A stretch of DNA of 64,000 nucleotides from Dastarcus helophoroides (Eukaryota; Arthropoda; Insecta; Coleoptera; Bothrideridae). This document shows, in pieces, positions 14,469-46,800 of the stretch (its first letter is position 1; each line of letters starts with the position of its first letter). The translations under genes and the position numbers were made by a program. The notes under the pieces were generated by a model, which was not told the DNA's origin, ran no database searches, and saw only the letters and a list, made by a program, of their open reading frames with translations. The DNA is taken from assembly GCA_028583605.1 (NCBI GenBank), contig CM053331.1, forward strand, positions 14,120,857 through 14,184,856, written 5' to 3'.

Positions 14469-15364
14469 ATGCCTCTTACCACACAGCACAAAATTTTCAT
14501 GATTGAAGCCTATTTTCGAACGGGTGCGTTAGTTAATGGAAATTGGCAATACAGTCAACGTTTGTGTTTGGACAATTTTCGATAGCACTTCCCAAACGTG
14601 GCAATATTACCGGACAATTTTTATGCGTGCCTTACAAATTGTGTTGAAGTATTTCGCGAAACTGGTTGTGTGACTCATAAAAAAGGTAATGGCAGACCAA
14701 GAGTTCGTACAGAAGAAGTTGTCAATGACGTTCGTCAACGTTTGGAAGAGGAGCCTGCAAAACCTTTGAAACGTCTTTCTCAGGAAATTGGACTTTCTTA
14801 TGGAATATGTCAAAAGATTTTAAAGAAAGACTTGAACATGCATCCATAGAAGATGCAAGCTCTCATGCCCGCAGACCACCCTAGATGCCTTGCTTACTGC
14901 CATTGGTTTGTCAATAATTTAATGAATGACGATCTTCTGGACTTAACTTTTTTTTCTGACGAAGCGTGGTTCCACCTTTCGGGATACATCAATTCTCAAA
15001 ATATGGGAATGTGGAGCAATGATAAGCCTCATGTTTTTACTAAAAAATTGGTGTTTGGATGGCAGTTTCTCGCAGAAGAATAACTGGGCCAATTTGTTGA
15101 TGACCGGCTGATAAGTTTGCATACAGAAGTTGAGTTTCCTCCGACATCACCTTGTTTGACAATTGTGGACTATTTTATATTTCCTTACTTAAAAAACAAG
15201 ATTTTCGCAACTCCGGTAAATAATTTGCAAGAACTACAACAAAGAATTGTTCAGCAATGTGCAACCATAACGCCAGAAATGCTGCAAAACGCTTTTCACA
15301 GCATGAGGAGGAGCGTAAACTTGTGCATCGAACAAAACGGGGGATATTTCCGACAATTACTGTA
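14469..15364 (+). pseudogene. Dead mariner-family transposase (copy 1)
   Basis: The start is [20 protein letters not shown], a helix-turn-helix N-terminus of a mariner-type family common in insects. The frame is broken by TAG at 14584-14586 (the other copy has a sense codon there) and by a TAG after LNMHP near 14847. About 160 bp are deleted near 15091, removing the block that carries the second catalytic Asp. The deletion joins short matching AATTT/TTGATGAC sequence. The first acid (FFSDEAWFHL) and the last (IVDYFIFPYL) remain. It cannot make an active enzyme. Confidence 0.85.
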
Positions 15365-15432
15365 ATTCAGTTTTTCTTGTTACTAAAACCTTTATTTCAT
15401 AATTTGTAGTTCATTATTGTTTTACCACTGAA

Positions 15433-19603: not shown

Positions 19604-19849
19604 TTATATTACTTCGAGTGGTGGCGGAAAGTCTGGTGATAATCCGTTTGGTGGCGGCATTCTCGAAGGTGGTTGTGGGGGATGTGGAGGTATCTCTAAA
19701 ACTGCTGGAACGTATGTGGCGCTTGGTAAACATTTTGAACACTGACGTTTTAAGGCAGGCTTTTGTCTGGAACCACGGCATCGCATAGCAAAGCATAGTT
19801 CACCTGCCATTTCTGCACAGAGTGATTGATGGGGCACGTTGGAGAGGCG
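19604..19849 (-). CDS. Receptor last coding exon: cytoplasmic tail and stop
   Basis: The acceptor GATTTTAG at 19850-19851 leads into [20 protein letters not shown], continuing the frame of the M4 exon. The 81 codons include a Cys/Arg-rich stretch ([18 protein letters not shown]) and a proline-rich end ([17 protein letters not shown]), then TAA at 19604-19606. The tail follows M4 directly and should be cytoplasmic. The last four residues LEVI could bind a PDZ domain (Glu at -2), but that is only a guess. An overlapping open frame at 19590-19796 is a shadow. Confidence 0.85.
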   Translation of the reverse strand, partial: RLSNVPHQSLCAEMAGELCFAMRCRGSRQKPALKRQCSKCLPSATYVPAVLEIPPHPPQPPSRMPPPNGLSPDFPPPLEVI

Positions 19850-22800
19850 CTAAAATCAGATACAGGTAACTGATTTTAAAGAAATAATATGCAATATTTT
19901 TTTGCTTTTTTAAGTTCAATTCACTCTAAACCGTCAACTTATTAAACTTTAAGAGCACTGAAAACTGTAACTCGATAGTTTCAAAGCTTGAATACATACT
20001 ATATGAAAATTATGCTTTCTGTTAAGATTTGGTTATCTAGATATCTATATAGAATGTCTCATGGCTCGCAAACACGACTGGATCGTTTTAACACATCTTT
20101 TATAGAAGATTTAGATGGGAGCTCACACTAAACTGTAATTCATAAAATTAATTGGCAACAGAACGACCAAACAATCTAATGGTAATAATCAACCGACAAT
20201 GCTAAATAGTGAAATCGGTTAGGGAAAACCAAGATTTCAGTAAGATATTGTAGAATTAATATTATAAGACCCTATTTATCGTTGATCAACCAGTGAATAT
20301 TTTACTCGATTTTTCTTTCCTGCTAAAGGAATCATTTGTTAGTTGTTTACCTAGAAACTTTGATGAGTACGGAATTACTCAGTTAAAGAGTATGTTGAAA
20401 AAGGTCATACTATACACTACATACAGTGTAGTAACCTGAACTGCAATTAATTAAATCAAAAAGGATCAATATTTGTTTCAGCGAAATTTGAATTATATTG
20501 TTTATGCCATATTTTAAGGTGATTTTTGGCTTTTTCTTTTTATAACAACGTAAGAACTGACTTGAAATGTATCTGAAATAAAAGGAATGCTTTATTATTC
20601 TTCATTGAACGACTGATTGAAGAAGATTATCAATAGAAAAAAGAAAAAAGTTAAAACGTACAATTTTTAAAAGTAAATATTAGTGTAAAGGATTCTCCAA
20701 ATGTGCCCTTAAAAAGAGTGAAGGACTTTGCTCAAATTACCATTGATTGTCTAGTAGGGGTTCCGAAGTTTTAATTTTCATTATAAGATTAGTAACAGTT
20801 TTATTCATTAACATCAGAACCTTAATATTTAAAGAGAATATAGCTTCAAAAAAGTATCGATTGAGGAGATATTTAATAGAGTACATGATTCACAAACTGA
20901 GATTGCGAATCTGAATCGACTCAGCTCTTTGATTGAGTGCATTTTGAAAAGTCTTGTTTTCACATTTTAATATCGACAATGTTTATAATTAGCCCCCGGG
21001 GGTTATTTTGTATTTTGGTCTCGGTGATAAATACTTCTTAAATAAGCAATTATTTAATTAAAATATTTTAGTACTTACTGTACCAGATTTAAAGTTACAT
21101 TTACATAAATCGTACTTAATAATTATTAAAGAAATCGGAGGGCAGCAAAAAAATTAAGGGTATCTCCTCTAGATTTACCCTACACTTTACAAAATTTTGA
21201 TTAGACAGTTAATTTTAAAAATTTCATATTTTTTAAGTCTTTCTTTATTTTTCTCTTTATATTGGATAGAAATTCTTTTCAAAAAATCCTTCCTTAAGAT
21301 CGCAGGGTGTATAGTTAAAAAAAGTTAGTAATTAGTTCTCCGCTTTTCACTTTTCTGTAGGAGAAAAATAGGAATCCCCCTTAAAAATGGCAATTTTTAA
21401 ATGAATTTTAAAGTGTTTCAAAATGTTGGTTGAAAAATTTCGGTCCACCGTTCACCTTTATTAAATTTATTTCAGGTAAATTAATTACACTTTCAGTAGG
21501 TAATTTATTACTTCCATCAATTTTTGAGAAACAAGAACTACGCATAAATTATTTTAATAAAAATATATAGCGTTTTACGAAATCTTTTTCAGGTAGATTG
21601 TACTCAAAGAGTTCTGGAAATTAAATATGTTCCATTAAAATTTATGAAAGTGTTACATTAATATTATGTTTTGCCAAAAATTTATGTAATTTAAATTATA
21701 ACTTACCTTTTCAACTAAGGCGTTTTTCTTCGAATTGTAACAGAATTCGCATATTGCAATTAGAACAGCGAATGCCAACCCGCAAAGTAATACTACGAAA
21801 ATACCACCAATATTATCCACGCCCAATGAATTTGCTTTGGATTCCTTGCCCTTTTCGTTTCTACTGCATGTTTCCCCAGTATTTTTCCACCATTTATCGT
21901 ACAACATCTGAATTTCTCCCTTTTCCTGCAATAATTACATATTTCAGTTGATGAAAATGTTTAATATTTAAAAATATGATGGCGTATAAAGAATTTCAAG
22001 GAACTCTTAAAACATCATTAAAAAGTGCATTTCGTGGGGATTTTTGGTAGAAAGATTATTCTACATAATCAATTAAATAATTAATTTATTTCAACCATTA
22101 AACAGCTTGACGGCCAATTATAGAATAGAAATGTTTACATATTGTTAAAAAACCGAAAAGAAAAACAAAGAAATAAAAATGCGAATATGAAAAATGGATT
22201 TACACAAGCAAATGGAATATTAAGTATGGATAACATGCATCGGAGTCCTACTTCCAGATTTATGATTCTCCATTAGGAAAAGGACCCATTAAAACCCCTA
22301 TAAACTCTATATTATTTTGCTGCATTTTTATAGGGCTATCCAAATATATAAAAATATACAGGGTATTCTCAGTCAGTAAGTTTAAATCAACACTGTATAT
22401 GATAGATGCAATAAAATGAAAATAATTTTAAAATATGCTCCCTGCACCATTGGACAAAATTCCATTTTGATATCTTCTCAGGCACTTTAGGAATTTTCTT
22501 TAAATATTTTCAGTATTCATTATACTTAATGTATCTAGGATACCAGACTAGTCTCGCATATTTCAACTTAGACTTGACAAACGAGTTAAAAAGCATAAGT
22601 AAGGCGTGAGTGACGGTAAAGCCATATAAATTTTTAATAACAAAGTCTAGACTTCTAGAAGGCGATGATATAATATTTTCGATATGTCTGGTGAACCAGA
22701 GTTTTTGATTAAAAGTGACTCCTAAATCACAGAAGTATTGTAGACGTTCGAGTATGATGCCATTCAAAATATAATCGAATTCAAGTGCCTTGTTTCTTTC

Positions 22801-25800: not shown

Positions 25801-28800
25801 GAGGAAGTGCAAGTCTTTGATGTATTTTTGAATAATGACAAACTTAGCACCGCGAGCCAATCACAGGGACTCTGGTTCGCCACTTTTTCCTTGAGGCTCT
25901 CTGGCTTATCGGTATAAATAAGTTTTTCAGCTGTTTTGTTTAATAATGTGGTTCCTAATCGACAGTAACGCCTAACTATGTTCAGGATATAAATAATATG
26001 CTGTATATAAGCTGAGATTAATTTCATTCAATTCGTATCTCGAAGAATGTTACCAAAGTCGAAAAATGAAAATTTTCTTTTATCATAAAAGAGAAAAAAA
26101 TACTCTAAAAAGGACGAGTCGTGAGGCATGAGGCTAATGTATATACGAGGAAAGTATCAGTTGCTGAAAATTCAATCATGCAATCACTGTCAATAAGTTG
26201 TTTCAAAAACTTCACATACAGTGTGTCCCAAGATAGAGTACTGAAGGGAAATTTCTTTTTTATTTGTGAGTTTATGAGAAAAAGTCATTCTTCATACAAA
26301 TCCTGCTTAATCTTAGATCACCAAAAAGGACACATTTTTAGAGATTATTTGTAAAGGGAGTTTAGTTGTTCAAAAATTTCAAAATGCCTAAGACTAAAAT
26401 GTTATTTTTGGCAGTATCAAAAATTGTTACTAATATTTGTAGTTTGTAATAACAAAAAATGCCTAAAAATGAGATTTTGGTTAATTTTCTAAAAACTAAG
26501 CAAAATAGGTTACAAATCAAGGTAACAAGAAAATGAAGATGTCAGATAATAACAATAAGTGATTAAGCTAAAAGATCATTCAGAGGTACCACCACCTGAT
26601 CCCGTGCAAACGTCTACTCTCTTTATAATTCTCTAGGCAAATTAATTTTCTGAATTCTAATGCACAGACCGATGGATTTGAACATTCAGCAAATTTGGGG
26701 CTTGGAAAACAAATTACGGTTTGGATCTTGTTAGATATCGTCAGTTTGGTAGCCCAACTGAAAACTAACAAATGATCCCTTTGAAGGTATACACTAAAAA
26801 ATTATAAATGTTCCCAAATGTAATTTGTGGCGAAATTGAATCTTCTGTGCTATCTAGCGAGAAAAAAATGGATGACTGTGATAGGAATTGAAGAGAATGG
26901 TCTTGATGATGTTACCCATCAAAACAAATATTACTGTTGATTTGTCAGTAATAATAAATTAATTTTCGTTTTCACTTTTCTTGTCAAGTTTAATTAACAA
27001 TAAATTTTATTTCAATATTTCAAATCAACCTTTCTCAAGTAACCGCAAATTTCTAGCTTAGAGCCACCTAGCGGTCTGTAGAAGAAAGTACGAAATAGCC
27101 CAAACAACTGCCGTGTAAACAGAATAGACGTAGAGTCTGCACACATTTAGAGGGCTCGGTAGTTGCAGTGTAGGTATATTCTATTTCTAAAATTTCCTGA
27201 AAATAAATGAACATTTCAAATTAAGATTTTTCTGTAGTTCTAAGCCGCATTTTTAAATAATATTTTTTGATACTGCCAAAAATAATAGCGGTTTATTTCA
27301 GGTCATTTTTAGAATTTTTAAATAATTGAACTCCCTGTATGAACAATTAAGAAAAATGTAATTTTTAGTGATTTAAGATCAAACAGGAGTTTGCATAGAG
27401 AATGACTTTTTATCGTGAATCCACAAATAAAAAAGAAACCCCTCTTAAGTACTTTATTCTAGAACACACTGTATATTCTTTACCACAAACAAGAAAAATG
27501 GAAAGAAAGCTACTACGCCTTTATTTACATAAAAGTTAAACGTTGGACTATTTATCAGATTTGAAATTGAATACCAAAGTTTTGACCGCATTTGTTATCG
27601 TCAGTCTGCCAAGTTAAATTAATTTATTTGTAACAAACCGTTAATGAAACGTCTCTGCGAAGTAAGCATAGCTTACCTGCAATTCTAGAATAGCCAAGGA
27701 TATTTTATCTCGCCAAGGACTCCCCATAGGTGTGGCAATACCATAACCTTTGGAATCGAGAAAGCCACCAATTTGAGTAAGATTGCAGTTTCTTTGTACA
27801 ATGTAGTCCAGCATGGTGGATTCCATCAAAAAGGCATAATTACCCTCCAATACCCTTTGGATACCGTCTTCGTAGGTGGTCACAAAGACGGAAGGTTTGC
27901 GGTTTTCCATAAATCTCCACATTTTTTTGTACGTTTCTATCATTGAATCCTGAAAAATGTATATTAAAAATTTAAAAGATATTTAGTGTCAAAATATCTC
28001 TGTTTTGTGAACATCAGTCGTCTCTAATATATCGTGGTTTGGAGTTGATAGTAACTGATAGCAGTTTAGATCAATTTGATTCTAAAAGTATCTTCATAAT
28101 GGATGCAGCTCTAAATCAATCATTTAAAATATGTTTAAATGTATGCATGGCACGCATCTAAAGCAGAAGTCATAATTTGTGAGTATTTGTTTTTATAGAA
28201 TTTAAAACTAAACTAAAAACTGGAAATTTCGTGGACCTCTCTTTTGTAAAATGGCGTGTCTCATTTAAAATAAAGACACTGGAATATTTTCATAATTATT
28301 TGATATCCAAATCTGAACATTCCTACGATCGTGGTTCTTTATAAGTCGTACCGACATATTTTGGGGTAATTAGGTTTGAAATAATAATCTAAACCAAAGG
28401 CGGCCCCCAAATTCAAGAGAATCCAAGTTTATTCTTAATCATTTTTAGCTAAATTTATACTTTGAATTTAAAATTCTAAGTTTGAAACCTAATTTATTAT
28501 TAAAATTTAAGGTTCGAAAATAACAATTCAGAATTTTAATAAAAAACAAGATTTTTTAAACAAAAATTTTCATAATTTCAAAAATAAAGTAGAAATTTCT
28601 ATTATTTTCTTTTTTAATTTTGACTTTAAAATCGAACGACCAATTAAATGTTTTGTAACAATTAATCGTGCTTAAAATTTAAAATATGTACAACCGCAAC
28701 CATAAACTAGTTTCGGCCTTTCTTGGCCTCATCAGTATGGTACGGTAGTTATATACACTACCAACTTAAAGCCGTTAGTCAGTCGTATAAGTATCCAAGA

Positions 28801-31800
28801 GCTTAAACCCCCATTGGGTGACTTGTAACTGACTTTTAACTATTTATTACGCAAACATACTAATGAGATAATAAACCTTGTATATACGAATATATACAAG
28901 TTTATTCCGATGTAATTGAAATCTAATTTTATTAGAATCTAATGAAAATAAGATTGCAATTGCAAAGTTCACGTAGATGAGGTAAAGCTTGTATCACGGG
29001 TTGCATCGCAACATCCATAGATACAAACGTCCTCGGCGTGACTTTACTTTCATCTAGTTTCACAAATGACCAATTAAATGTTCTGTAATTGGATACTTAT
29101 ACGACTGACTAACGGTTTTAAGTTGGAATTGCATACAACCACCCTACCGTACTGATGAGGCCAAGGAAGGCCGAAACTAGTCTATGGTTGCGGTTTTATA
29201 CGCCAGAAAACTTCAAGAAGGATAGGAAGTTTTCAGATTATTTTTTTACTTTTGAATTTATTCTAACTACAAATTTTCAACCTTACACTCAAAAGAAACA
29301 AAGCTCAAAGTTATGCTTAACAAAAATCATACTTTAAAGTGAGGCATTAAAGAAAATAAAACCCTAACCAAAATTCTTACAAGATTTGTACAAAAATATA
29401 TGCTAGAAAAACATGAAAATTACTAAAAAAATTGTAAGTTACATTTGGAAAGTCAGAATTAAAGTCAGATTAAAATTGTCAACTGCTTTACTATTACATT
29501 CGGGGTAAGTAAACCGCAGATCAGTTTCCAAATTTCAAAAAAAGCCCAAAAACTTCTACAAAACTTCGAAATTAAATAGTTTTTTGGATTGTAAAGTGGC
29601 AATTATAAAAGAAAAATTTAAAATTTTAATTTCTTTGGAAAAAAATAAAAAAATAGAAATTTCAGCAAAATATGAACATTCAAAAGTCTTTTTTTAATAG
29701 AAATTTTACGTGTCTTCTCGAATAAATTCTAGAAATATCGAGTCTCTACAAATTTTCCAGTTTAAACTTTGAATTGAAACTCATACTTTTTAGATTCGAA
29801 AGTTTTGAAGCAAAAGTAGAATTCTTCACATTAAAATCTAAATTTTGGGAAAAAACATTCCAAATATTTTAAACTAAAAACTAACTTTTTAAATAAAAAT
29901 GACCTCTTTTCTATAATTAAGGGTTGAAATTTTGATACAAAAATCTAAATGTCCAGCGAAACTTAAAATTTATGAATTTCGATTTTTAATAAAAAAATGT
30001 ATAGGGTAAAAAGCAAAAAATGGTTAGTTTTATTAATAAAGTAAAAATTTGGAACAAAATTAAATATTAAATAATTACTCGAAATTTCTATTTTAAAATC
30101 ATTCATTTCATAACAAAAAATCGAAATTAAAATAGCAATTTCTCCAAATCGTTGAGGTTTTGGGAAAAAAATAAAAACTTTAAAATTAAAAGAGAAAACT
30201 GAAGAAACCTTGAATTAAAAGAATCATAGTTGTGTGGCAGGCTGAATTAAAGCAAAATTGCAGAAAGAAAATTTTTTTTTCTTTAATTTTAGACTTTATA
30301 CCCGAAATTTCCACTTTTGATATACAGGTCTAATATCTTTCTTTTTACGAATTTAAATCGAAAGGCAGTTCAAGGAAAAGACTTTAAAAGTTCAGATTCA
30401 AAACGCTAAAAAAAAAACTAAATTTGAAAAGATAAATTGGCATTTTTATTCTAAAAAAAGGCAATTATTCATCTAATTCCCGCGGACAAAGTAGCGGGCG
30501 ACAGCGAGGGATTTTGTGAAACAAATTAATTCTCATTAATTATAAATATATCGTTAATTTTGTTTTAGTGTTCGAAACGTACCCTAAAAAAGGTCATCGT
30601 GGAGCCACTTTCCAATGTTCCATAAGGAATTTCAGTTTGACTGGCAAGATCTTCCGCGTTTTCTATGGGAGTAATCATCCTTTCTACGGTAAGGAAAGCA
30701 GCTAAATTTGCTGTATAAGAGGATATTATAATTAAGGTAAAAAACCACCATATTCCTCCAACAATTCTGGTTGATGTAGCCTGCGAAACAAAATTTTTCA
30801 GTAACATGTTAAAACATAAAACATGCATAAACTTAGGTATAAGATATTTGCTTGTTCTGTATAAAGCTTGATGCTGATGACGCGATGACGGAAACAATAT
30901 TCTCAGTATAAAAGAAATCAAATTAGTTAAAACAGAAGCAAGCACAATACCTTCCTAATGACCAACATTTACGCACAATACATTATTTCTAACAATTATA
31001 TTTATTTGTAATAATTGATATAAACTGGCACAAACTATTTTTTATTAAATTAACATTTTCAGTAATGACTACTTTTTTTAATTAAAAAACGCGGATATAC
31101 GGATTACTATAATCTTCTTTTTATCATCTGAAAATCGAAAACGAAAAAGAAAAAACATGTAACACAATACTCCCAAAGTCAGATTTATTCAAACAATTCT
31201 GTTGATTGTATCAAAGGTACTATCACTTTGAAAGCACCCATATTTATTCTTTGTCAATAAAATGTAAGTGAAAAATGTAAATGTGCAAGTATGGAAGAAT
31301 ATAGGTGCTTAGAAACATGCAGGTACTGATTTTCAGGAATATTGTGATACAATATTAAAAAAATATGAGTGCTTTCTTAGTTACAAATGAATTTTATCCT
31401 TGCAAATTAAACAAAGTAAAATTCAATATTAGGGTGTTTCCCCTAATACGTCTGGACGATTTGCTAGGAGTCAAAAAATAATCAGGAAAACCTAAAATAT
31501 TGTATAATTTTAAGCGTATATAAGTGCATATTTAACCCGGCGATAGTCGCGCCAAGTCTTTCAGACCCAATAAATTTTATTTTTCGTAATAACGTGAACA
31601 TGATAACGTTTCATGTAGTGTCCCTTCATCTACCTTCCTAAAATGTAATAATTACGTGTATTGTGCTATTAGCTCCGGCACTGTCTTTTAAGTGACAGAG
31701 TAAGCACTAATTTTTCTTCCCGGCGCGACTAAATATACATGATTTTATTATCTTCTCCGCACGACTAAATAAGCATGATTTTTTTATATCTTGGTTTTTT

Positions 31801-34800
31801 GAGATGCTATTATTTTTTCATGTTGCTTGTGCAGTAAGACTATTCTACAAAGGCGTCATATTTATGTATTTAAATCAGCTCTATATAAGAAATTGACAAC
31901 GGCTTAAATTTTTAACTTTACTGCTCATATTTGTTTAAAGTAAACGTATTGTTAATAATTTGTAATAATCTAAAAAAAAATTTAAAGTTTTCAATCACCT
32001 AATTTCACAAATATAGGGCCCAAAAAATGTTTGGGTCTGTGAGACCCAGCGCGACCATATTTTTTCAAAAGCGCGACTACCGCCTGTTTAATTTTTACCT
32101 TCGAAAGCTTTTATATAACTAACAATATTGAATTACGTTGACATTGGTTTCAGATTTTATTAAATTGTTATCTGAACGTAATAAAATAAAATTCATTTGT
32201 TTGGTACCTTTGGATTCAGATCGGAGCCTTGTTGCATCAATGTTCCAATTGTGAACCAGAATGAGTTGGCCAGAGAAAACTGATTTTCTATAATTTCATT
32301 TTCCACATCGCAAGGATGCGGATTTTGCCATTCGTACGGTGAAAATCTTGCTACTACGAACATGGTTATGGAAACAAGAACGTACGCTGAGAAAACGTAC
32401 ATCCATATGTGGGTGGCAAGCGGATTCAAAAAGGAAAACAGCTTGGCTTGTTGCCTTTTTGGAACCTTAAACAATAGCCAAATTTGAGTATTTCTTATAA
32501 ATTGATATATCGGGTGTAACAGGGTCATAGTACACCCCCATTTTTTCTTTATTTGTAAAGATAAAATTTTCAAAATTGCTACACTTGATGTACTTATGAA
32601 ATGGCAAATTTTGACATAAAAATGACATTTCTACTGCCGTCACTTTTGCCAAAACTGATAGTAATTTTGGATTTTTAAATGGAACACCTTATATATTATT
32701 ACCATTTTTGAATCTGCATAATTTTCTAAATACAATACATCTAAAATAAATGATTTCTAAAGGATCGAAAATTTTTGTGGTCCTATTTTATATTTTACCC
32801 TAGAAGGCTATGACTCATTCTAATTAATTCTAATGGACCACATTAACGCTACAAAGATCAAATCATGTGAGAAGGAGTAATTCATTTTTTTTTTAACGTG
32901 ATGTAGCTGATAAAAGTGGTTTTTATGTCATCACTTCATTTTCTTAAATGACATCATATTAGTATTGTGGTACGACGAAAAAGTATAAATTAATGGGGAA
33001 TCTAACCATCTTTTCATTTTTGTTCTGAAACCAATAGAACTAAAGTTATAGCTAAGATATTTCAAAATATTCGGTTTCAATTTATTTTAAGATTTATTCA
33101 ATAAGAACCCAAAACAGCCGTGAAAATTAAATGAAAAAATTACTCTTCCGACGTTTTCCTAATTTAAATTTTTGCAGCGTTAATTTGGTCGGTTAATTAA
33201 GATGAGTCTTGATCTTCTAGGTTGAAAAGGAAAATGGAATCAAAAAAATGTTTGATCCTTTAAAAATCACGTGTATTGTATTCAGAAAATTGTGCAGATG
33301 CAGAGATGTATAGGGTGTTTCGTTTAAAAATCAAAAATTAGTATCAGTTTTAACAAAAGTGACAGCAGTGGAAATATAAATGGTATTTATGTCAAAATTT
33401 GACACTTCATAAGCTCACCAGGTGTAAAAACTTTAAAAATGTTATCTTCATAACTAAAAAAAAATAGGGGTGTACTATGATCCTTTTATAAAGATATTTG
33501 TTTATTGGAACCACTGGTTCTTGGTTTATCGTTTGCATATTTTTTAGGGAAATTTGTTTCCTTTCCAAATTGTTTTCCAATAAAAATCTCCTTTATTTCT
33601 TTAAACAGCTAGGTAATAAATACCGGGATATCAAAAATTATCTTGGTAAAGGGTGGTTGTGGAATGTAAAACGTATGTGTTAATTTAAATTTTCGAATAT
33701 GTTTTTTTGTGTCAGAATCTTTCGAGTCATTGTGCTGAAATTTTCTAATCCAGTTTTTGAATCATGCCTCTTACCACACAGCACAAAATTTTCATGATTA
33801 AAGCCTATTTTCGAACGGGTGCGCTAGTTAATGGAAATTGGCAATACAGTCAACGTTTGTGTTTGGACAATTTTCGAGAGCACTTCCCAAACGTGTCAAT
33901 AAAACCGGTCAATTTTTATGCATGCCTTACAAATTGCGTTGAAGTGTTTCGCGAAACTGGTTGTGTGACTCATAAAAAAGGTGATGGTAGACCAAGAGTT
34001 CGTACAGAAGAAGTTGTCAATGACGTTCGTCAACGTATGGAAGAGAAGCCTGCAAAACCTTTGAAACGTCTTTCTCAGGAAATTTAACTTTCTTATGGAA
34101 CCTGTCAAAAGATTTTAAAGAAAAACTTGAACATGCATCCATATAAGATGCAAGCATATCAAGCTCTTCGGCCCGCAGACCACCCCAGACGCCTTGCTTA
34201 CTGCCATTGGTTTGTCAATAATTTAATGAATGTCTTAACTTTTTTTTCTGACGAATCGTGGTTCCACCTTTCGGAATACATCAATTCTCAAAATATGCAA
34301 ATGTGGAGCAATGATAACCCTCATGTTTTTATTGAATCGCCACTACATGCTCCAAAAATTGGTGTTTGGATGGCAGTTTCTCGCAGAAGAATAATTAGGC
34401 CAATTTTTTTCGATTTCACCGTCAACGCAGAAAGGTATCGACACAACTTTTTGGCTGAATTGGTGCAACATTAAACGATGATGAACTTCGGTACGGTTAT
34501 TTCCAGCACGATGTTGCAACAGCACAAAATATTGCTTTCCTCCTCAATTTTTTTGATGACCGGCTGATAAGTTTGCATGCAGAAGTTGAGTTTCCTCCGA
34601 GATCACTTTGTTTGAGAATCATGGACTTCCTTACTTAAAAAACAAGATTTTCGCAACTCCGGTAAATAATTTGCAAGAACTGCAACAAAGAATTGTTCAG
34701 CAATGTGCAACCATAACGCCAGAAATGCTGCAAAACGCTTTTCACAGCATGAGAAGGCGCGTCAACTTCTGCATCGAACAAAACGGGGGACATTTGCAAC

Positions 34801-37800
34801 AATTACTGAAATTTAGTTTTTCTTGTTACTAAAACCGTTATTTCATAATTTGTAATTCTTTATTGTTTTACAACTGAAATAAATAGGTATGAAATTTGTA
34901 GGTTATTGATGATGTCAGTGTGACAGTGACATAATTATTTCAAACGTAAAGTAAGACACACGTTTTACATTCCACAACCACCCTTGACCAAGATTATTTT
35001 TGATATCCCGGTACGTATGGATATAAAACCTATCTGGCAGCAATGAATTTCTTGAGAGTAAAGAATTAACGATTTTTTTTCAAATCTGGCAATACGAGTA
35101 TGGATAGATACCGGAGTGATTAAGTTTGTGAATTTCTAGGTATTGTTAACACGAAAATTTTACAGCGCAAAAAAGCTTGACATTGTATAAATTTTGATAT
35201 TTGCTTATTCTTTGCGACGTTGTATTAATAGGACAGGTGACAATATAAAAAATACCTTATTAGATCATGTAAATATGATAAATTATTGAGTAAGAAATAA
35301 GAAATGATAGCCTTTTACCTATAAAAACTCGTAATTAGCTCATTATTACAATTTTAAAATTGCAATATTTTGCTCTGTGAACGATTCTTACAAAACGGAA
35401 CCGGCTATGATAGTTTTAAATGCGATGTCATTTGTTCAGCATAACGAACTTCTGCCAATTCGCTAATGTTTATTTTTGGCTAATCTATCGTGCTCTTATG
35501 CGTTTTGTAGTACCTACTTTTGCTCTTATTTATGGAAGTTATGTTTTTCGACCTGGAATAACCGTTTTTTAAAAATGAAAAAATTCAATTTACTCGCATC
35601 GAAATGTTGATTATCATTAAGGTGAGGAAAACAATGTGAAAGCTTTGAAAACCAGAGCGAGAATAATATATATTTTCTATAAAAATCTTACATAAGTTTC
35701 TCAGATTCGGTGAGGATGTGTTAAATTGCCCCTACGACATTGGAACACATGTGCTTCTTTAATTATCAAATACTACTTAAAACTAGGCCCATTTCATCTA
35801 CAAATTTGGTTCGACCAATTTACGTTTCCCGGTTTTGGGTAATAAAATATATTTTTAATTAAAAGGGATTTCAGTTAACATCTCTCTTCATTAGTCAAAA
35901 AATTAGGGGTTAATCTTCTAATTATTTTCTTTCTTTATAATTCCAATCCTTAGGTAACGAAAGAGTTACTTACAAATAAAAATAACATAAATTTAAGTAA
36001 CTAAAAACTAAACAATAGAAAAGGCTACACTACTTTAAAATTGAGTCAATTTGACATAACAATTAAATGGGCACGGCAATATTTTAATCCGTTTTTAACC
36101 GTCATTGCACAATAATTAATTTCGTAACATTGCACAAAAGTTTTTAATGTTGAAATGCTTAAGGGCGACTGCGAATTAGGGAGTTCTGATTCGTCCATGG
36201 AAAAGCGGTTTCTCGATCTCCTTTGGTATTTCTTTTAGACGGTGTTTTGCACCAAGGATTGGGTGTTTTGGTTGGAACATAACAGTAACAATGGTTCATT
36301 ACATATTAAATATTTGAATGTCAAAACAGGAATGAAAATTAATTAAGGAAAATATTAATAGAAGCCATCAATCGGACAAACAAGGCATTTTCAATATCTG
36401 TGTAAAATATTAATTTTTCACAATTATTTAAATAAAGTTTTTCTTTTTTAAAAACGGTTATTCTAGGTCGGAATAACACCAGATATGATTAAACACATGG
36501 GGAAGAAAGATGTGAAACTATTGTACAAGATTTATAATAAGGTATGGATAAAAGGACAAATACCCAAAAATAGGAGAATAGGTGTTATTATACCCATATA
36601 TAAAATTATCGAGGTATAACTTTATGGAGCACGCTAGCAAAGATATATGAAAGGGTGTTAGCAAACAGGCTTCGTTTAGTCATAGAAAGGCAATTAAGTG
36701 TATCCCAAAGTAGATTTAGAAGAGGCCACAGTATACATGACCATATATATGAAACAACTTACAGATAAAATATTAAGACAACGGAGAGAGGAATATCTGC
36801 GTTCATTGATATTGAAAAGGCCTTTGACAAGGCACCCATAAAATAAATATGGATGAGTTTGGAACAATGAGGAGTCAGCCGAAAATAATTGCTGGAATAA
36901 AAAGCATATATGAGGAAAATGCAAATTACGTCAGAACGCGAAATGTGCAGTCTTCTACTTTCTACACAAGAGATGGTTTACGACAGGGAGGAGTACTTAG
37001 CCCATTACTATTCATTATCCTGATAAATGACATAATCAAACAAACATATACTAAAGCAACAGGCCTACAATTAGGATACTACAATCTACAAAAAGTCTGT
37101 ATAAAAGAATTGCATTTGAAGATGATATAGTAATAATGGCCAATTCATCCGAAAACCTACAAGCTAACTTAGAAATATGGAAAGAAGCTCTAGAATCTAA
37201 ACGAATGAAAATAAATGTCAATAAAACAAAAGTAATGGCGATAACAGAAGATTAAAATAAAAAAATAAATATACGATTGGACAATAAGGATATACAGCAG
37301 GTTCAGGAATTTAAATATTTAGCAGTAATAATAGATAATAAAGGAAACCGGGATAGGGACATCAATGAACACATAGAGAAAGCACTTAAAGCATATGTAT
37401 GTGTGCAACCACAGTCAAGAAAAAAGAAATATCCAAAAATACGAAAATGTTAGTATACAAGACTATCTTCCAACCTATACTACTATTTGGAAGTGAAATC
37501 TGAATTTTAATGGAAAGAATGAAAAGCCGGATACAAGCAGTCGAGATAAAGTTCTTAAGAGCGATATAGGGTATAAGTAGGTGAGATCGAATAAGAAATA
37601 AAAAATTGAGGGAAGAACTGGATGCTAAACCTATATTAGAAATTGTTGAAGAAAAAGAATTAGGTTGGTGGGGACATATACAAGGGATGAAACCATGCAA
37701 GTACAGAAACTATGGGAAGCAAGAACATCAGACCGGAGACGTAGAGGCAGACCTAAAGAAGAGAGGGGTGACACTATTGATAAATTAATCAGAAAGAGAC

Positions 37801-40800
37801 ACTTAAACCTAAACCTAGGTCGGAAAATATAATTTGAAAATATGGATTAATTTAGTATCGTGTAAACGGCGTTGGCCCTAGATCTTTAACAGTGTAAAGC
37901 GAAATAATTATTATTTGGCATCTATAATAAAACGTGTCCTTCATAACATATCAATTGTTCTATTTCGTACTAATATTATTATATTCCAGTCCCTGTAAAT
38001 ATAGTTTAGCACTAACATTTCAAAAAAAGGAAAAAATAACGTCGCTTTTGCCTTAATAATATTTTCTCTTGAACAAAAGGTCCTCAACTACTCTCTAAAT
38101 ATTTTGGACAAAAAACCTTCACACTAACAAATTATAACAACCAAAAAAAGTTCCCCAATACAACCTGCCAATGTTATATCTTCTGCTCTTCCTCGATTTT
38201 AATTTATCCTTGCAATGTAGGATCGTCGCCCCATATTAACCACCAATTTAGCGCCCATTTAGCACCCGGCATCTAGGGCTATCGCACACTTCGTCTAAAA
38301 GCATATTATTTTTTTTTGAGGATCACTTTGATGTAAATATTATTTTATTTGTTACTGTTTGATAACATGGTAAATAAGGTAAGTGGAGTTTTTCGCATAG
38401 TTATTATGCCATGCTTGATACTTTAACATCAAGTTTAAGTGAATTGACTTTCTTTAATTATTTCGGATGTGTGATAATTCCATAATCAAAGTAATATTCA
38501 CAAAAATATAACATATTTTTACTTGAGATGCTTTGGATCCCTCGTTGTAACCAAGTTTTTCTCTTTTTAATACTTCCTATAACTCTTAAAGGCAGTTACT
38601 GTGGTGTCCTTACAGTTGTAGACATCGCATATAATGACTCATTATTTTAAATGAAAATTGTAATGTATGATACCGAACGTTACTTGAGCTTATTTGATTT
38701 CTCTACAAATGACGTCACCATCTATTTAAACATGGCAGCTCTTGTTTTCGCTCCAATTTAAATGGGTGAATTGTATTTTACATATTTTATAGTATAATGT
38801 GATTTTATATAAAGAAAATAAAAATCTATATGGACTATATGGACTAATAATGTGTAAAATAACTAACTTACTAACTAATATGGTATGAACATTAGGACAA
38901 TTTAAAAAGAGTCAAATACTCTACTCCGCTCATTTTATGTAACTCTAGGTATTATACTTTTGTTAAGAAATGTCAATTCCTTTAAGATGGCCCCTAACAG
39001 CGTTAACTAGTTTTTATCTGACACTTAATTATATTTTTTTTTGTTTTTATGATAAGAATGTGCATTATAGCTATTAACGCAACGGGATTATTATGCGATT
39101 TATAATAATCGGGGACGTTGCCAGGCGACAAGTCGTCTGTCCACGTCCGAGATTGCTGAAATGGCTAATAATCGAGTTGCATTCAAAGCTTTATCTTATC
39201 ATTCACAACGAAGACAAAAAAAGCAACAAACTTTTAAAATGAAATTTGTATCTAGCATAATTGTAACTAATTTATTTTCTAATTTACTATTTACTAATTT
39301 ATTATGTTCTACTAAGTTATTGTGCTATATTATTATGAGGTTAATAATTATCAATAAAGATTTAACTCAAAGGACACTTAATTTCCAATAATACGATAAA
39401 TTTTTAGTTGTGTGATAGGTAAAAAAATAAAGGAATTCAGGAAGAAGTACAAAGTTGTATGCTTTTCGCTTGAGAACTCCTGCACACATTTCTTTGAAAC
39501 TTTAGTGACCTATTATGTGGGTCCGAGTTCATCATAAATACGGAAGCATTATTTCAAAACCTCAGCGGGGATCAACTTTTATTTCATATGAAATGAAATA
39601 TGGTGCACTTTCTCTGCTTATTCAACGGCACCTACTAAAGCATAAATATGCTTATGAAAGATACGAGTAAACTATTGGCGTATATAAAGTTTTTAAATTT
39701 TGTAAAACTAAACACATTGTTTGTTTTCATGGATGATTGAGAATCTAACTTGATTCGAAGTTATCGCGAAACGATTGTTATTTATTTTGGACTCACGTAT
39801 CTAGCTGGTTGAAACGTCGGTCACGTATGGCGGAACCGATATTTCAGCAAGTAAATTCCATTCTGGCGTCTTTACAACTTTGACACTGACTAAAGGGTTG
39901 ATTAGAGAAAAATCTTTTTATTTGAAGAAAATACTTTGAATCAACGCTAAATATGAATATTGCATGTAAGCTTAGTTCAGGATGTTGCAGTTAATATAAT
40001 TAAAACTTATGGAAAAACTATATGTCCCATTTCGTCCGGTAATTAGGGTTATGTCGTGACATATATTTTTTTATTTGCACAGTAAAATTTTAAAGAACAC
40101 AAGTCTTAACCATTGGCATTAGCAACATAATTCAATTCTTAATATAAAAATTTGATCTCTCCCTTGTCACTTAAATAATCTGCTTGAAAATACCATTTCG
40201 GGATTTTACATTATATGCCTTAATGTTTACATATTTATGTGCTGCACCTGAAGAGGTAAAAACATTTAAACTTCATTAAATTAATGCTGTAGTGTTAATG
40301 CTCTGCTTTTCTGTCCAAAATTGTTTGAAATGTCTGAATATGAACAATGATTTAAGAAGGCAAAGGGAGAAAAACATCTGTTTAAAAAAAAAGCAAAAAT
40401 TATGGATTCATATCCGAACACCGTTTCAATAAGTTTTATTCATGTTTAATCACGTCTCTGTGTATCCCTGGCATTATTGGACTTACAACAGCAGAGAAAT
40501 ACTGTGGAAATAAAAATATCTAGGTATCATAGTTTAAATGACACATTTATCCATCAATTTGATTAATAGTCCAACATTTTTAATTCGAATAGGCAAAGGT
40601 CAAAGAGAAACATAGAACCAAATGTTTCCTTTTGAAATTGTTTCAATTATATTAAAGTTATTAGGCTATTCACTAAAATAATATTCACAAGAAAACATGC
40701 ACAATTTTCTTTGTTAAAATAAATAAATCTGACTTTGGTTTTTGGTTTACATTGATATCTAGTTCTTTTTACGATTTCTTAAGTTAGCATATAAAGCGGT

Positions 40801-43800
40801 ATCCGTCAAATATCACTCCTAATGTTTAAACGGGTAGGCTGAATATGTATTAAATTCGGTGTTGAGAAGCAAAGTTTTGATTTTATTAGATTTCATTCGG
40901 TTGGCATAGCACTGAGTTTGAATTTCACAAATGTTATGGCGACAAGGAAATATAAAGTACATATAAAGTTTCCTCAATGTGATCACTACGTGGAACATCA
41001 CCCATTCGGTCAATGATTAATTATGAAATAGATTTCATTAAGCCGTTGGCAAATAGAATACAACTAAGACTGCAGCTGATCAGAGCTGTTGTTGTTTACA
41101 ATTATTTGCAGAAACATGTTGCTCTGGAAAAGTTTACAGTAACCAACTGACTACTATACGACAACATCGCTTCCTCTGTTTAATATTGCATAAGGAAGTA
41201 ACATTTATAAAAAGTTCGTGAAATGTAAAATACGTGTTGATTGGAGCCAAGAACTTTTCAGACTTGCAACTGCTATTCCTGTATCATATTCATAATGCTA
41301 ACCAATTTGAAAAATGGAGCTTTACTTATTTACATTTTATCCTGGTTCCCTTTGGAACATTCATATTGATTTCAGATTTGTGAAGTTTTAAATTAAAATA
41401 ATGAAATCCTTCCAGATCCTGCATAACAATTGGCTTTTACAACCTACGTAGTTATACATTTTGTTTCATTTCACATAATGCGATATCTTATAAATGTAAA
41501 TGGTAAAGTGTGGAGCACTGATAAAATGCTTTGGTAAAACATGTCACAGTTTGGAGTTCGCTACTTCATTTAAGGACTTTAATTAAAAATATATTATCGG
41601 TAGGATAGAGAAATCCAAAAAAAACTGATATTTCTTCGTCATAGATTTAAAATTTAAATTCAATTCTTGAAATGAAGATTTCTTTAGGGGACCAGTTTTT
41701 GACACAGAAAAATCTTATGATTACACCTTACCATCACATGTTGCATTACCGACATGTTACAATATTAACAATATATGCAGTTCTAAGTAGGCGTAATTAA
41801 AAACGAGTGATTGGCACCGGAGATTGAACCCGGGATCTACCACGCGATAATTTGACGCCCTACCAATTACTCTATACTGTATGTTGACAATTTTAAATTC
41901 TTACTCGCCTTATATCATATACATATACTTAAGGTTAAAGTGATTGCTTGAAAATTTTAACGTATGTACACTATGCATTGTTTAAATTGTGTTTTAGTTA
42001 AATTATTATATCAATTGCTTAATTGTAGAACCGCATTGCAGTACAGCTGTGAGTATTAAATATTTTAATACTTTAATATGAAAAATTAATAAAAAAACAA
42101 ATTTGGATGTACGATTCACGTTGAATGTTGCGTAATTAAAAATTAAGTCATAACTATAACAGTAATCTGTTTCTGGTAGAGCAGTTAAATACCTGAGGAG
42201 TAATGCCAGATGGTTGTCGCAATAAAGTTCCAGTTATGAACCAAAAACTATTAGACATTCCTGAGTGATTGATTAAATATTCGCCTTCCCTCCATGGCAC
42301 AGGTTTCACCCATTCACAGGGAGAAAATCTTGCTAACGCAAAAAGGGTGAAAGCTGACATAAAAAATGCACCACTAAAAAATATCCAAATGTCTAAGCCT
42401 AAGGGATCCAAAAAGGTGAAAAACGCTGATGCCTTGTCAGTGGGAACCTAGGTAAATATTGGAAAATTATTTAAGTTGTACAATTATAAACAAACATGCA
42501 AATACAACTTTCTTTATGTTATTTCAGTGACGTAACATTTCATTGAATAAAATAATGTTAATATTACATGGTATACAGCTTTCCTCCAATATGGAAAAAT
42601 ACCAAAGACGAAGCAAAGTTGTCCGTATGGTTAAAAAACCGAGTTGAGCAGTTTAGATACGCAACTTTTTTACGAGTCTTAACCGTATGTTAATGAAACT
42701 GTGTTTAATTTCGAATTTTTGTGTGTTATTTTCATTTTTTAATTATTTTTTCATAATGATAATTATAGGTGTTGTGTATATGATGCTCAGTTTTTTTTAA
42801 AAATAAATTCCCTTATATATTTTTGTCACATGGTCTGGTAGGTTTGTGCAGATTTTTCGAAATGACATCAGAACATGACGCAAGTTATCGGAATTATACC
42901 CAACTTGGTTAAAATATTTTTTCTTCTTTCAGGGATACGAAACATTTCATTTTTTTAATAATTAATAATGACATCATCTATGTAGGATAATTTTAAAAAC
43001 TTTTAGCAAGTACAAAGGTAAAATTAAACACATCTTCCAAATTTAAGAAACATCGAATAATGTATCATATTCACATTTTAAGGTATTTGAAAACAAATTG
43101 TGCTCCCATCTATTATTATAAATTATACTGACTCTGCTGTAAAATTGTTCGTCGCTGTGCTAAACGTGGGGGTAAAATTCGATTATGGGATAACTTTGTC
43201 CATTCTATGTATTTATTATTGCTTTATAGGCATCCAATGATAACAAAAGCCAGAAAATTTCTGCACCTAATGCATTTGTGCTCTTTACTAATATAAACGC
43301 CAAATAAATGTGCCGTACTAAAGCGAATAAAGGTTTCCATATATAGATGGTAAGTTGGTTTAAGAACATATTGGATTTTCATTTCGGTGAGATTTCGCTT
43401 AATTGCTTCTGGCATACAGATTTAATACTAATAAATGGAAGCTATGGCCTTTCCATTGAAATTAAATGTCTTCTAAATTCACAAGTAAACCAAATTTATT
43501 GCTTATGACCAGACTATTGTTATGGAAATATTACCTTAAATTTACAGCGTATTATAATCCAAAAAGTTTTGTTAAGAATAAGAAATTAGTGAATAATATT
43601 CTTTGAGTCAGGTTTCTTCTTTGCCGGAAAATTGTACTGAAAACTAAATTAATAAAATTTGATTCGGACCGTTTTATTATTAGGAGGAGGTTATTTGTTC
43701 AAAGTTCAAAACTTTTTCCCAATATTAGTAGAGGTAATTACATAGCCTAAATGAATAGATCTTGTTACGGTTTAAATTTTCACGGAAATAGTTGCTTGTG

Positions 43801-46800
43801 GTTGCTGGCATATCATCTGTCAGTTTTTGCCTGGGGGAAATCGGCCATCTTGCCTCTTGTCGTTTACTTGGGTGTCATCCTTCGTAAGGTGTGGATGCAG
43901 ATCTTTCCAAGTGGATCCTGGGTCTCTTTCCCTTAAGGGATTTACTGTAACCCATCTTCGGACCGTCTGGGGCTATTGTCTTTCGTGGTGTTACTGAGTT
44001 AGAACCAAAGCCTCAGATGGTTCCGGTATTCCCGGAATAAACAGGGAGGTGCTCCCCAAGCACGCGGCAGAGCCAACCAACAATCAAGGTATGAGAATGT
44101 GCCCCTCAACCCTCAATATTTGGAGGGATAATTCTATTTTCTTAATCTTATAGGCTCTTTCTGTTGGGATCCTTGTAAACTGTTTTTTTTTGGGGTCCGT
44201 TTCATGTTAAGAACTGTTCGTTTTGTGATCCTCTTTGATGGATTCTTTTTGCTTGGATCCGTTTCTGATTTCCGACCTGTACTGTGACGCGAAGAGTCTC
44301 AAGGGAATAGCCATCGTCTGGTGGAAGACGCTTCCCCCCCAAGTGTGGTCCTCGAAGACTTCACCGATGTGAGGTCTTGTTCACCTACTGGGTGGCAACA
44401 CGAGACTAAGACGAACCTGAATAATCTTTTGGTGTGAATGTGATCTTCAAAAGGTCGAAGTTAAACCAGATATTGAACTTCTTTAGTTGAAAGAATTGAT
44501 GAAAATGTCAAAAACAAGAATCTTCTGCCTTTTAGTTATTGGCTGATGGACAAAACGTTAAAGAAATGGCTATGGATTATTAATTCAACTTTTAAAAACA
44601 GACCCTACAATAGTAATTTGAGCTGCATAAGAACACTATAACAAAATTCAGTCTTATGACTTGTGCACAAAAAGTGTATGCATATAAAGTTTTCCCATCT
44701 AGTGTGTTAATTTAACTTTTTGGAATATTCACGTATGTTTCTTACTTGATCAGTACTATACACAGAGAACTACATAAACATAAGTTTCAAATTAATGATT
44801 TGATTTTACAATCGTTTTTACGTTGGAAGACGACTCTTTCGATCCTACTGCTTTGGATTTCTTCGATTGGCCTTACTTGAAAAATTTCATCTTTAGAATA
44901 CCAGAAAATTCTAAATATAGAACGATAAAAAATAGTGGCTCATTTTTCCAAGGCATTTAAGGTATATTTATATACCTTAATTATATATTATTATATAGGT
45001 ATTATATATATTATATATTATTATATTACCTGAATATTTCATTATAATGAAATATTCAGGTTTTTTAATAAGTCAATAGCTTAATCCCTAATTATGCGAG
45101 TGCTACTCGCTCTTGGATAAATTATTTCTTAATGTTTATGCATATTGTTTTATCCAAATTTTCTGGTATGATAGCTTCGTGGAAGATATTAAGATCGAGA
45201 TTAGTAAAACTATAATAATTTTCAAGAATACATTATTTTTAAATAGACACCTTTTTGTACAGTCGATCACAACATTTATGCAACTGGTGATTGTGGTAAT
45301 TTTAAAACCATAAAATGTCTTAAATAAAAAGCATTACTAGTCACTAACACTTTATGAGATGGCTTTGGTTGCAATGTCTCAGTTGGCTATGGTTTATTAT
45401 GTATCGAGGGTTGATCTGCCATAATTAATGTCTTGCGAGTAATTAATAAACCTGTGGCAAATCCTAAAATAGATATACATCTGAATAAAATAATATAAAC
45501 GACAAACTGGATCTGCACCTGAAGGTTTTTTTTTATTTTCCTGAATTTTTTTGCGTCCTTCTGTCATGGCTGTACCGTTTTTAGAACAAAAGTAAAATTT
45601 CCTTTCAGCCTTTAATATTAAACAAGCCCAATATATAGTGTAAAGACAAATGTTTCTTTTTTCAAATCATACAGCAAAAATCAGCACGAACTATCCAGAC
45701 CATCAGGTATCCTGCCTCGTGCAATTTTTAAACAGTGTGAAAAAACTTAAGAGGAATGTTGATTCACAGGACAAGAGTAATTATATTTAATTTAATAAAG
45801 GTTTTAAAATATAGTGAAAATACGGTAAATTTTTTAGAAATCGTGAAAAACGGATTATCATACAACACAGAAATATATTTTAATGAGGTCGTTACCTAAA
45901 AGAAAATAATAACTTTTAAAGGAAATGTAGAGAAATGTGTATTTAAAATTGTTTTTGCAACTTAGGGTTAATTCTATAATATGGACTTAAACATTTAGTT
46001 GTGCAGAAAAGAATTTAATTTTTCTTATTTTTTGTTGTATTGAAAACAATTTGCCATTGAAGTTCTGTGATGTTTAAACAGCACAAATTAATTCGTGTAT
46101 GCTCTTTGGTACATACTTTATTAAAATTCTTTATTTTGCAGAAAATGCCTAACAGTACATCCGTAAAAATGGCAAAGTGAGATGAAATGGAGGAAATCGG
46201 AAAAGGCAACGCGTATGTAAAATGTAGATTAAATTTTAATATACAGGAAATTACAAAAAAATCCAAACGTATTACCATTCAATAACTCTGCGAAATCGAA
46301 ATATTCCGATTTATTTTCCTAGACGGATATGAGCCCGTCAGTATGGCAGAGGAATCTTATAGGTTTCAAGACTTTAAATAATGCGCGGTTAGCGGTGCAT
46401 TAAATGAAATACGATGCATTTAATATGCAGAACTCGCATCGGCTTACCTTAAAGAGAATGCTGATTCCCAAGTTCATGAAGGGCTTCGTAAAGTCTATTA
46501 CGCTTTCCCTGGCGTAGTTTATGGTCATCGATCCTACGGCGAGATCGGCTTTCTGTAATAATAAGAGCCCATATAATCCTTCCTGTCGCAAATAAAATTC
46601 AATTGCCATCTAGAGATAAAAAACGATTTTGATAATGTTCCAAAACTTTTGTCCTTTCAAAATGTTATTATGCACCAGTCGTTTTCCATGATTTTAATGT
46701 TACTATTGATTTAAAAAGCTATTTTTTCTAAAGTAGCGCAATTAGACTTAATGTTTTGCTACACATTTTACCAAGCATTCAATTGGAAACAAAAAAGGTA

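Follow-up and report, generated by a model that had tools for sequence, protein, structure and literature searches.

Two M1-pore exons with Arg and Gln at the Q/R site in a kainate-type receptor gene of Dastarcus helophoroides: a putative genomic pore switch

The stretch of DNA analysed here (the window; 64,000 nucleotides, nt) lies at C7:14120857-14184856, on contig C7 (CM053331.1) of the beetle Dastarcus helophoroides, whose genome comprises 538.9 Mb in 50 contigs. It carries a kainate-type glutamate receptor gene in which the first membrane segment (M1), the M1-pore loop and the pore loop are very probably encoded by two mutually exclusive exons, A and B. Both exons are intact, the exons that flank them are single, a second kainate-type gene on the same contig contains a like pair, and the exons are conserved at the protein level. 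The two differ at the Q/R site of the pore, and transcripts that used one exon or the other would yield receptors with Arg or Gln at this position. The features of the gene within the window are listed below in window coordinates, with a slash marking an exon-intron border.

61073..61276, minus strand: S1a, the start of the S1 half of the ligand-binding domain, 204 nt (Pfam PF10613)
46448..46552, minus strand: S1b, the end of S1, common to both forms, with donor AAG/GTAAGC
42193..42447, minus strand: exon A, the R-type M1-pore exon, 255 nt
42217..42219, minus strand: Q/R-site codon of exon A, CGA (Arg), located by alignment to GluK2
32208..32465, minus strand: exon B, the Q-type M1-pore exon, 258 nt
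32232..32234, minus strand: Q/R-site codon of exon B, CAA (Gln), located by alignment to GluK2
30583..30780, minus strand: M3 exon (SYTANLAAF gate helix and the start of S2), common to both forms
27677..27949, minus strand: S2 exon, common to both forms
21707..21925, minus strand: exon for the end of S2 and M4, common to both forms
19604..19849, minus strand: C-terminal tail exon with the stop codon, similar to the tail of the sister gene

Mutually exclusive pairs were recognised by homology, similar length, identical phase, adjacency and a position between shared exons, as described in the title of PMC3228551. A and B show these structural features, and no exon of the gene was found between them. 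Their alignment has 35 identical residues in 86 columns, close to the roughly 34 of 85 positions of the original prediction, and scores 186, compared with a maximum of 5 in 500 shuffles. The predicted placement of both exons, with intact frames, phase 0 at both ends and GT-AG borders, was borne out (A, TAG/GTT...CAG/GTATTT; B, AAG/GTT...AAG/GTACCA). The pair is separated by 9.7 kb and differs in length by one codon only, and A contains no frame-breaking indel. Each exon alone exceeds the Pfam Lig_chan cut-off of 30.8 bits (A, 40.5; B, 68.3). That A and B agree in phase is unremarkable by itself and is to be expected, because all eight exons of the gene in the window, and a further upstream exon described below (S1a*), are multiples of 3 nt in phase 0.

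No further copy of the eight exons was detected on either strand of the window by tblastn (best other match, E 0.07), and phmmer against six-frame pieces of at least 15 residues from the window gave no hits beyond self-matches of the exons and A against B. Within the window, S1, M3, S2, M4 and the tail thus occur once, as had been claimed; for the gene as a whole the claim fails, since a second S1a exon lies about 10 kb upstream of S1a. A swap of the entire channel lining had also been proposed. M1, the M1-pore loop and the pore loop are indeed exchanged, whereas M3, which lines the gate, is common to both forms. Mutually exclusive splicing, the interpretation originally put forward, is still the best reading, given the single S1b and M3 exons on either side, the double M1-pore segment that would result from using both exons, and the pair in the sister gene.

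The assignment to the kainate class agrees with the original prediction and is based on the order S1, M1, pore, M3, S2, M4 and on GluK2 as the nearest solved structure. The joined proteins align with residues 410-823 of GluK2 (5kuf_A) at 538 bits with A and 603 bits with B. For both proteins, GluK2 is the best match among solved structures, above GluK1, 3, 5 and GluA. In Pfam, S1a and S1b correspond to Lig_chan-Glu_bd, and A, B and M3 to Lig_chan above its cut-off. The M4 exon falls below the Lig_chan cut-off, and the S2 and tail exons have no Pfam match at 0.001. The exon before S1a (preS1) aligns with GluK2 from residue 337 onwards and matched no Pfam family. By eye, a possible alternative last exon follows M4 at 21575-21613 of the window (minus strand), which would replace the long tail exon.

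The Q/R-site glutamine of GluK2 is residue 621 in the numbering of the 908-residue chain, and the aligned residue is Gln (CAA) in B and Arg (CGA) in A. Four residues further on (+4), B has Asp and A has Gly. The original prediction did not mention that the swap alters these two residues. GluK2 positions 567 and 571, which we take to be further M1 editing sites, are also within the swapped exon and correspond to Val and Tyr in B and to Phe and Phe in A. Because the Q/R site and positions 567 and 571 all lie inside this exon, the swap replaces a segment that mammals vary by editing. Exon A additionally has an unusual Pro at pore position +2 and non-consensus residues in M1; its counterpart in the sister gene, A', lacks that Pro. 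In known receptors, the Q/R and +4 residues go with calcium permeability and polyamine block, according to the passages available from PMC6307864.

The residues at the two sites were compared in 11 M1-pore segments of the genome, namely the nine genome sequences included in the tree described below, L001 and the N-methyl-D-aspartate (NMDA)-like L018. Among these 11, Arg at the Q/R site occurs only in A and A'; the other residues are Gln in seven segments, Ala in L019 and Asn in L018. At +4, Gly is present in A, A' and L018, and Asp or Glu in the other eight. The kainate-like L019 (C3:4829673-4829969) reads SIMAQGCDI around the site and so has neither Gln nor Arg. Three more distant segments outside the count, L002, L006 and L008, have Pro, Pro and Cys at the Q/R site, as judged by eye.

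The second kainate-type gene lies about 0.7 Mb away on C7, at 14.91-14.98 Mb on the plus strand. Its parts, in contig coordinates, are:

C7, from 14914616, plus strand: preS1'
C7:14927924-14928127, plus strand: S1a', single
C7:14933102-14933206, plus strand: S1b', single
C7:14938933-14939190, plus strand: A' (R-type)
C7:14960231-14960698, plus strand: B' (Q-type; L023)
C7:14970699-14970896, plus strand: M3', single
C7, from 14974582, plus strand: S2'-M4', followed by tail'

In both C7 genes, an R-type exon with Arg at the Q/R site and Gly at +4 precedes a Q-type exon with Gln and Asp. Since a pair of this kind, in matching order, recurs in the sister gene, the choice between A and B is probably real and probably made by splicing. 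A genome search with the PF00060 profile gave at least 56 matches, compared with 11 for exon A as protein query. Among the at least 56 profile matches, 11 loci have separate M1-pore and M3 matches. A single M1-pore match is present at nine of these loci, and two matches are present in the window gene and in the gene at C7:14.91-14.98 Mb. Elsewhere, a pair of oppositely oriented kainate-like genes (L012 and L013, C3:45634643-45638396) sits within 4 kb.

The two C7 genes are similar in S1b (32/35 identical residues), M3 (61/66) and S2 (76/91), and differ more in the M1-pore exons (A-A', 41/85; B-B', 56/86). S1a (44/68) and preS1 (52% of 65 residues) are also divergent, and fast change is therefore not limited to the M1-pore exons. 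Between like exons of the two genes, identity is 0.28-0.43 at codon position 3 and 0.62-0.95 at positions 1 and 2. B' has 70 extra residues in its M1-pore loop. The 69 of them left out of the alignment include 18 Asp or Glu, 2 Lys or Arg and 5 Cys.

Several results weigh against this picture and concern the means of exclusion, the state of exon A and the history of the pair. No exclusion mechanism was found among the features checked (U1 donors, minor-spliceosome pattern, intron pairing and spacing). Both A and B are multiples of 3 nt, and double inclusion or double skipping would not be removed as a frameshift. In terms of U1 pairing energy, A (-7.2) and B (-5.6) have donors at least as strong as those of S1a (-5.1) and M3 (-5.3); the values for S1b, S2 and M4 are -9.5, -11.0 and -10.1. 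None of the seven donors of the gene matches the minor-spliceosome pattern, and all sites are GT-AG. Steric exclusion is unlikely for exons 9.7 kb apart. Thus, given this spacing, the shared frame and the uniform GT-AG sites, crowding, frameshift decay and minor-spliceosome mismatch do not explain exclusion.

Other features of the splice sites give slight support for a regulated choice. The M1-pore donors of the two genes (GTATTT, GTACCA, GTTTGA and GTGCAA) have G at +5 in one of four cases, compared with 10 of 11 other exons (p 0.033), and AG at +4+5 in none of four, compared with 8 of 11 (p 0.026); both features were chosen post hoc. The acceptors end in AAG in both Q-type exons and in TAG in both R-type exons. 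Between introns 1 and 2 the longest perfect complement measures 12 nt, a length reached in all of 40 shuffles, and between introns 1 and 3 it is also 12 nt (28/40). Introns 2 and 3, which flank B (42192-32466 and 32207-30781), share a 17-nt perfect complement that one of 40 shuffles equalled and that may be repeat-derived. These shuffles keep dinucleotides only roughly, and no mechanism is drawn from the pairing. Two transposase copies with broken frames, which are presumably mariner-like, lie at 14586-15365 and 33761-34832 of the window. The second sits in the A-B intron and adds to its length.

Exon A itself could be a relic, or be weakly used in this gene and drifting, while A' is functional in the sister gene. 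A evolves fast (branch length 1.56, the longest in the tree, versus 0 for A'), scores below B against GluK2 5kuf_A (52 versus 116 bits) and carries Pro at +2. Its pore may accordingly be altered, or may fail to conduct. The non-consensus residues in M1 and the low identity of A to A', far under that of M3 and S1b, would also fit a relic. However, A has kept an open frame free of frame-breaking indels and both of its splice sites, and other parts of the two genes, including B and S1a, have diverged too. Between A and A', codon positions 1 and 2 are kept in 54/85 and 63/85 cases, where about 22 are expected by composition, whereas position 3 is at chance (23 versus 21.8). Exon A is thus unlikely to be debris. 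Identity between A and B at codon positions 1, 2 and 3 is 0.58, 0.67 and 0.41, compared with about 0.26 by composition. In a neutral simulation, B was decayed by substitutions and its frame was checked for staying open. At the observed A-B identity of 0.553, the frame was open in 1 of 600 runs, and a long-dead exon A appears unlikely on this evidence. The test has less power against a late functional loss. In 1,000 runs, the frame was open in 20, 11, 6 and 1.5% at identities of 0.9, 0.85, 0.8 and 0.7, and a recent loss would escape it. Overall, we consider a relic or drifting exon A improbable.

A different use of A is less probable again. A could be a cassette included beside B, or an alternative end reached by read-through into the intron. 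The two exons are in frame together, and read-through from A meets a stop after 12 codons. However, two successive M1-pore segments would break the known receptor topology, the donor of A (CAG/GTATTT) fits the consensus at seven of nine places, and the order of the exons recurs in the sister gene; we regard both forms of this idea as very improbable. Hardly credible is an origin of A and B from different genes, joined by misassembly or as a nested tandem copy. The window alone would be insufficient to exclude it. However, a separate gene with its own M3, S2 and M4 would have contradicted the original prediction, and a tblastn search (E up to 0.001) of the surrounding 124 kb found no second S1b, M3, S2, M4 or tail. 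Moreover, the same arrangement occurs at another place on the contig. A separate neighbouring gene is not supported over the window, these 124 kb or 100 kb of the sister locus.

The history of the pair was addressed with a tree of ten M1-pore sequences (A, A', B, B', five other kainate-like loci of the genome, and GluK2), from which the insert of B' was excluded. In the protein tree, A and A' form a clade with support of 99/98, and the four C7 exons group together at 91/96. Of the six informative protein columns among the four exons, five support a grouping by exon type and one a grouping by gene, with none crosswise. Clades of A with B and of A' with B' are rejected by the approximately unbiased (AU) test (p-AU 0.009 and 0.005), and a clade of B with B' is neither shown nor rejected (0.113). 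However, the grouping of A with A' rests on the pore and is unresolved without alignment columns 73-84. Third codon positions lean the other way, with 11 sites grouping the four exons by gene, three by type and four crosswise. Shared third positions number 34/85 for A-B and 42/86 for A'-B', compared with 23/85 for A-A', where about 21 are expected; B-B' share 32/86. Synonymous divergence (dS) is computable within the genes (A-B, 2.3; A'-B', 1.5) and not between them (A-A' is saturated).

Within-gene conversion, or separate duplications with convergent pores, could explain this silent-site grouping. A pair that is simply older than the gene split, as the protein tree would have it, is disfavoured by the third codon positions. 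The pair may predate the split and have undergone conversion within each gene since, or it may have arisen separately in the two genes, which would then have reached the pore residues twice. On either view, the two genes contain an R-type and a Q-type exon at the same place and in a common order.

Upstream of the window, about 10 kb from S1a, the gene has a second version of this exon:

C7:14192144-14192347 (positions 7288-7491 of L025), minus strand: S1a*, open, 204 nt, with borders TTTAG and GTATGT

S1a* and S1a are of equal length and share 37 of 68 residues, with identities of 0.60, 0.78 and 0.29 at the three codon positions. A single preS1, ending in NVTLIVTTIL, precedes both exons and a single S1b follows them; tblastn found no second preS1 or S1b at E up to 0.001 in the 124 kb around the gene. 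The joined preS1-S1a*-S1b segment matches residues 337-512 of GluK2 (5kuh_A) at 166 bits, compared with 182 bits with S1a. In an all-versus-all comparison of minus-strand frames of at least 35 residues, the only receptor pairs are A/B and S1a*/S1a, and the other matches look like repeats. One S1a' was found in 100 kb of the sister locus. From this arrangement, the gene probably has a second choice point in the ligand-binding lobe, S1a* versus S1a, and 2 x 2 receptors would then be possible.

Among known systems, the flip/flop exons of the vertebrate GRIA1-4 genes are similar to A and B as a mutually exclusive pair in an ionotropic glutamate receptor. In the passages available from PMC8257547, this AMPA receptor pair is described as 115 nt long, located at the end of S2 and causing a frameshift if both exons are used. 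In mammals it thus lies in S2 and not in the pore, as the original prediction had noted. Unlike flip/flop, A and B are 255 and 258 nt long, encode the part from M1 to the pore, are in frame together and are placed between S1b and M3; only one copy each of the S2 and M4 exons was found in the window and the 124 kb around the gene. Homologous exon swaps at or near the pore are found in other channels, such as the alternative exon 8 of the insect nicotinic acetylcholine receptor alpha6 and the alternative turret exons of molluscan Cav3. These are channel exon swaps as here, but they belong to other families and involve no Q/R switch. In Drosophila, the kainate-class genes ekar (CG9935) and CG11155 are placed at 102D1 and 102F8 in the parts available from PMC4382183, two genes on one chromosome like the two on C7; orthology of the fly genes with the C7 genes is a guess.

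Editing at the Q/R site yields Gln or Arg in GluA2, GluK1 and GluK2, and the calcium permeability of mammalian receptors that contain these subunits depends on editing this one codon (passages of PMC8257547). The residue and its Gln and Arg outcomes are the same as in the C7 genes, where A and A' both have CGA. Unlike in editing, Arg is here genomic and is part of a separate exon that also changes the +4 residue and the positions of GluK2 567 and 571. An edited CAA is decoded like CGA.

Among the matches listed in a literature text search of titles and abstract starts, none described an exchange of pore exons in ionotropic glutamate receptors; the search did not cover the main Drosophila exon list (Hatje and Kollmar, 2013), and the term Q/R was probably unsearchable. 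Within these limits, the search agrees with the original remark that no described case of this arrangement was known. In the available parts of PMC3228551 and PMC3303723, the terms glutamate, GluR and kainate and the names ekar and CG11155 do not occur. The A/B case is also unnamed in the available passages of PMC8257547, PMC5740500, PMC7954323, PMC3923563, PMC6307864 and PMC4382183. The novelty of a pore-exon swap is unproven. In viral contigs, 24 and 13 stretches fit a pattern, and none encoded a relative. Insect kainate receptors with an FLRQGSG pore probably exist, and exon A' fits this motif. Insect annotations may therefore already include such exons without comment.

In the proposed switch, splicing of S1b to B and M3 would produce a subunit that carries Gln and Asp at the Q/R site and +4, respectively. 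By analogy with known receptors, such subunits would form calcium-permeable, rectifying channels that are blocked by polyamines. Splicing of S1b to A and M3 would instead produce a subunit with Arg and Gly, which, alone or mixed with others, would be expected to reduce calcium entry and rectification. The resulting channels could be calcium-poor, block-resistant or dominant-negative. Exon selection would then do the job of mammalian adenosine-to-inosine editing of the same codon. A may provide a poorly conducting or dominant-negative pore. A', which lacks the Pro at +2, is a better candidate than A for a plain R pore. We lean slightly towards a wider picture, an arthropod kainate gene pair with a Q/R switch written in the genome as two M1-pore exons, whose common order was inherited or reached twice, and in which one gene adds a ligand-lobe choice to give a 2 x 2 receptor, so that splicing could set ligand response and calcium permeability independently.

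If these readings are true, a gene that carries both pores as exons would represent an independent solution to the control of calcium permeability. A splicing reporter would allow the calcium permeability of the receptor to be tracked in individual cells, an exon deletion would allow it to be fixed, and the significance of Q versus R could be tested in an animal. Should the pair prove general among insects, studies based on one cDNA per gene would cover only one pore type.

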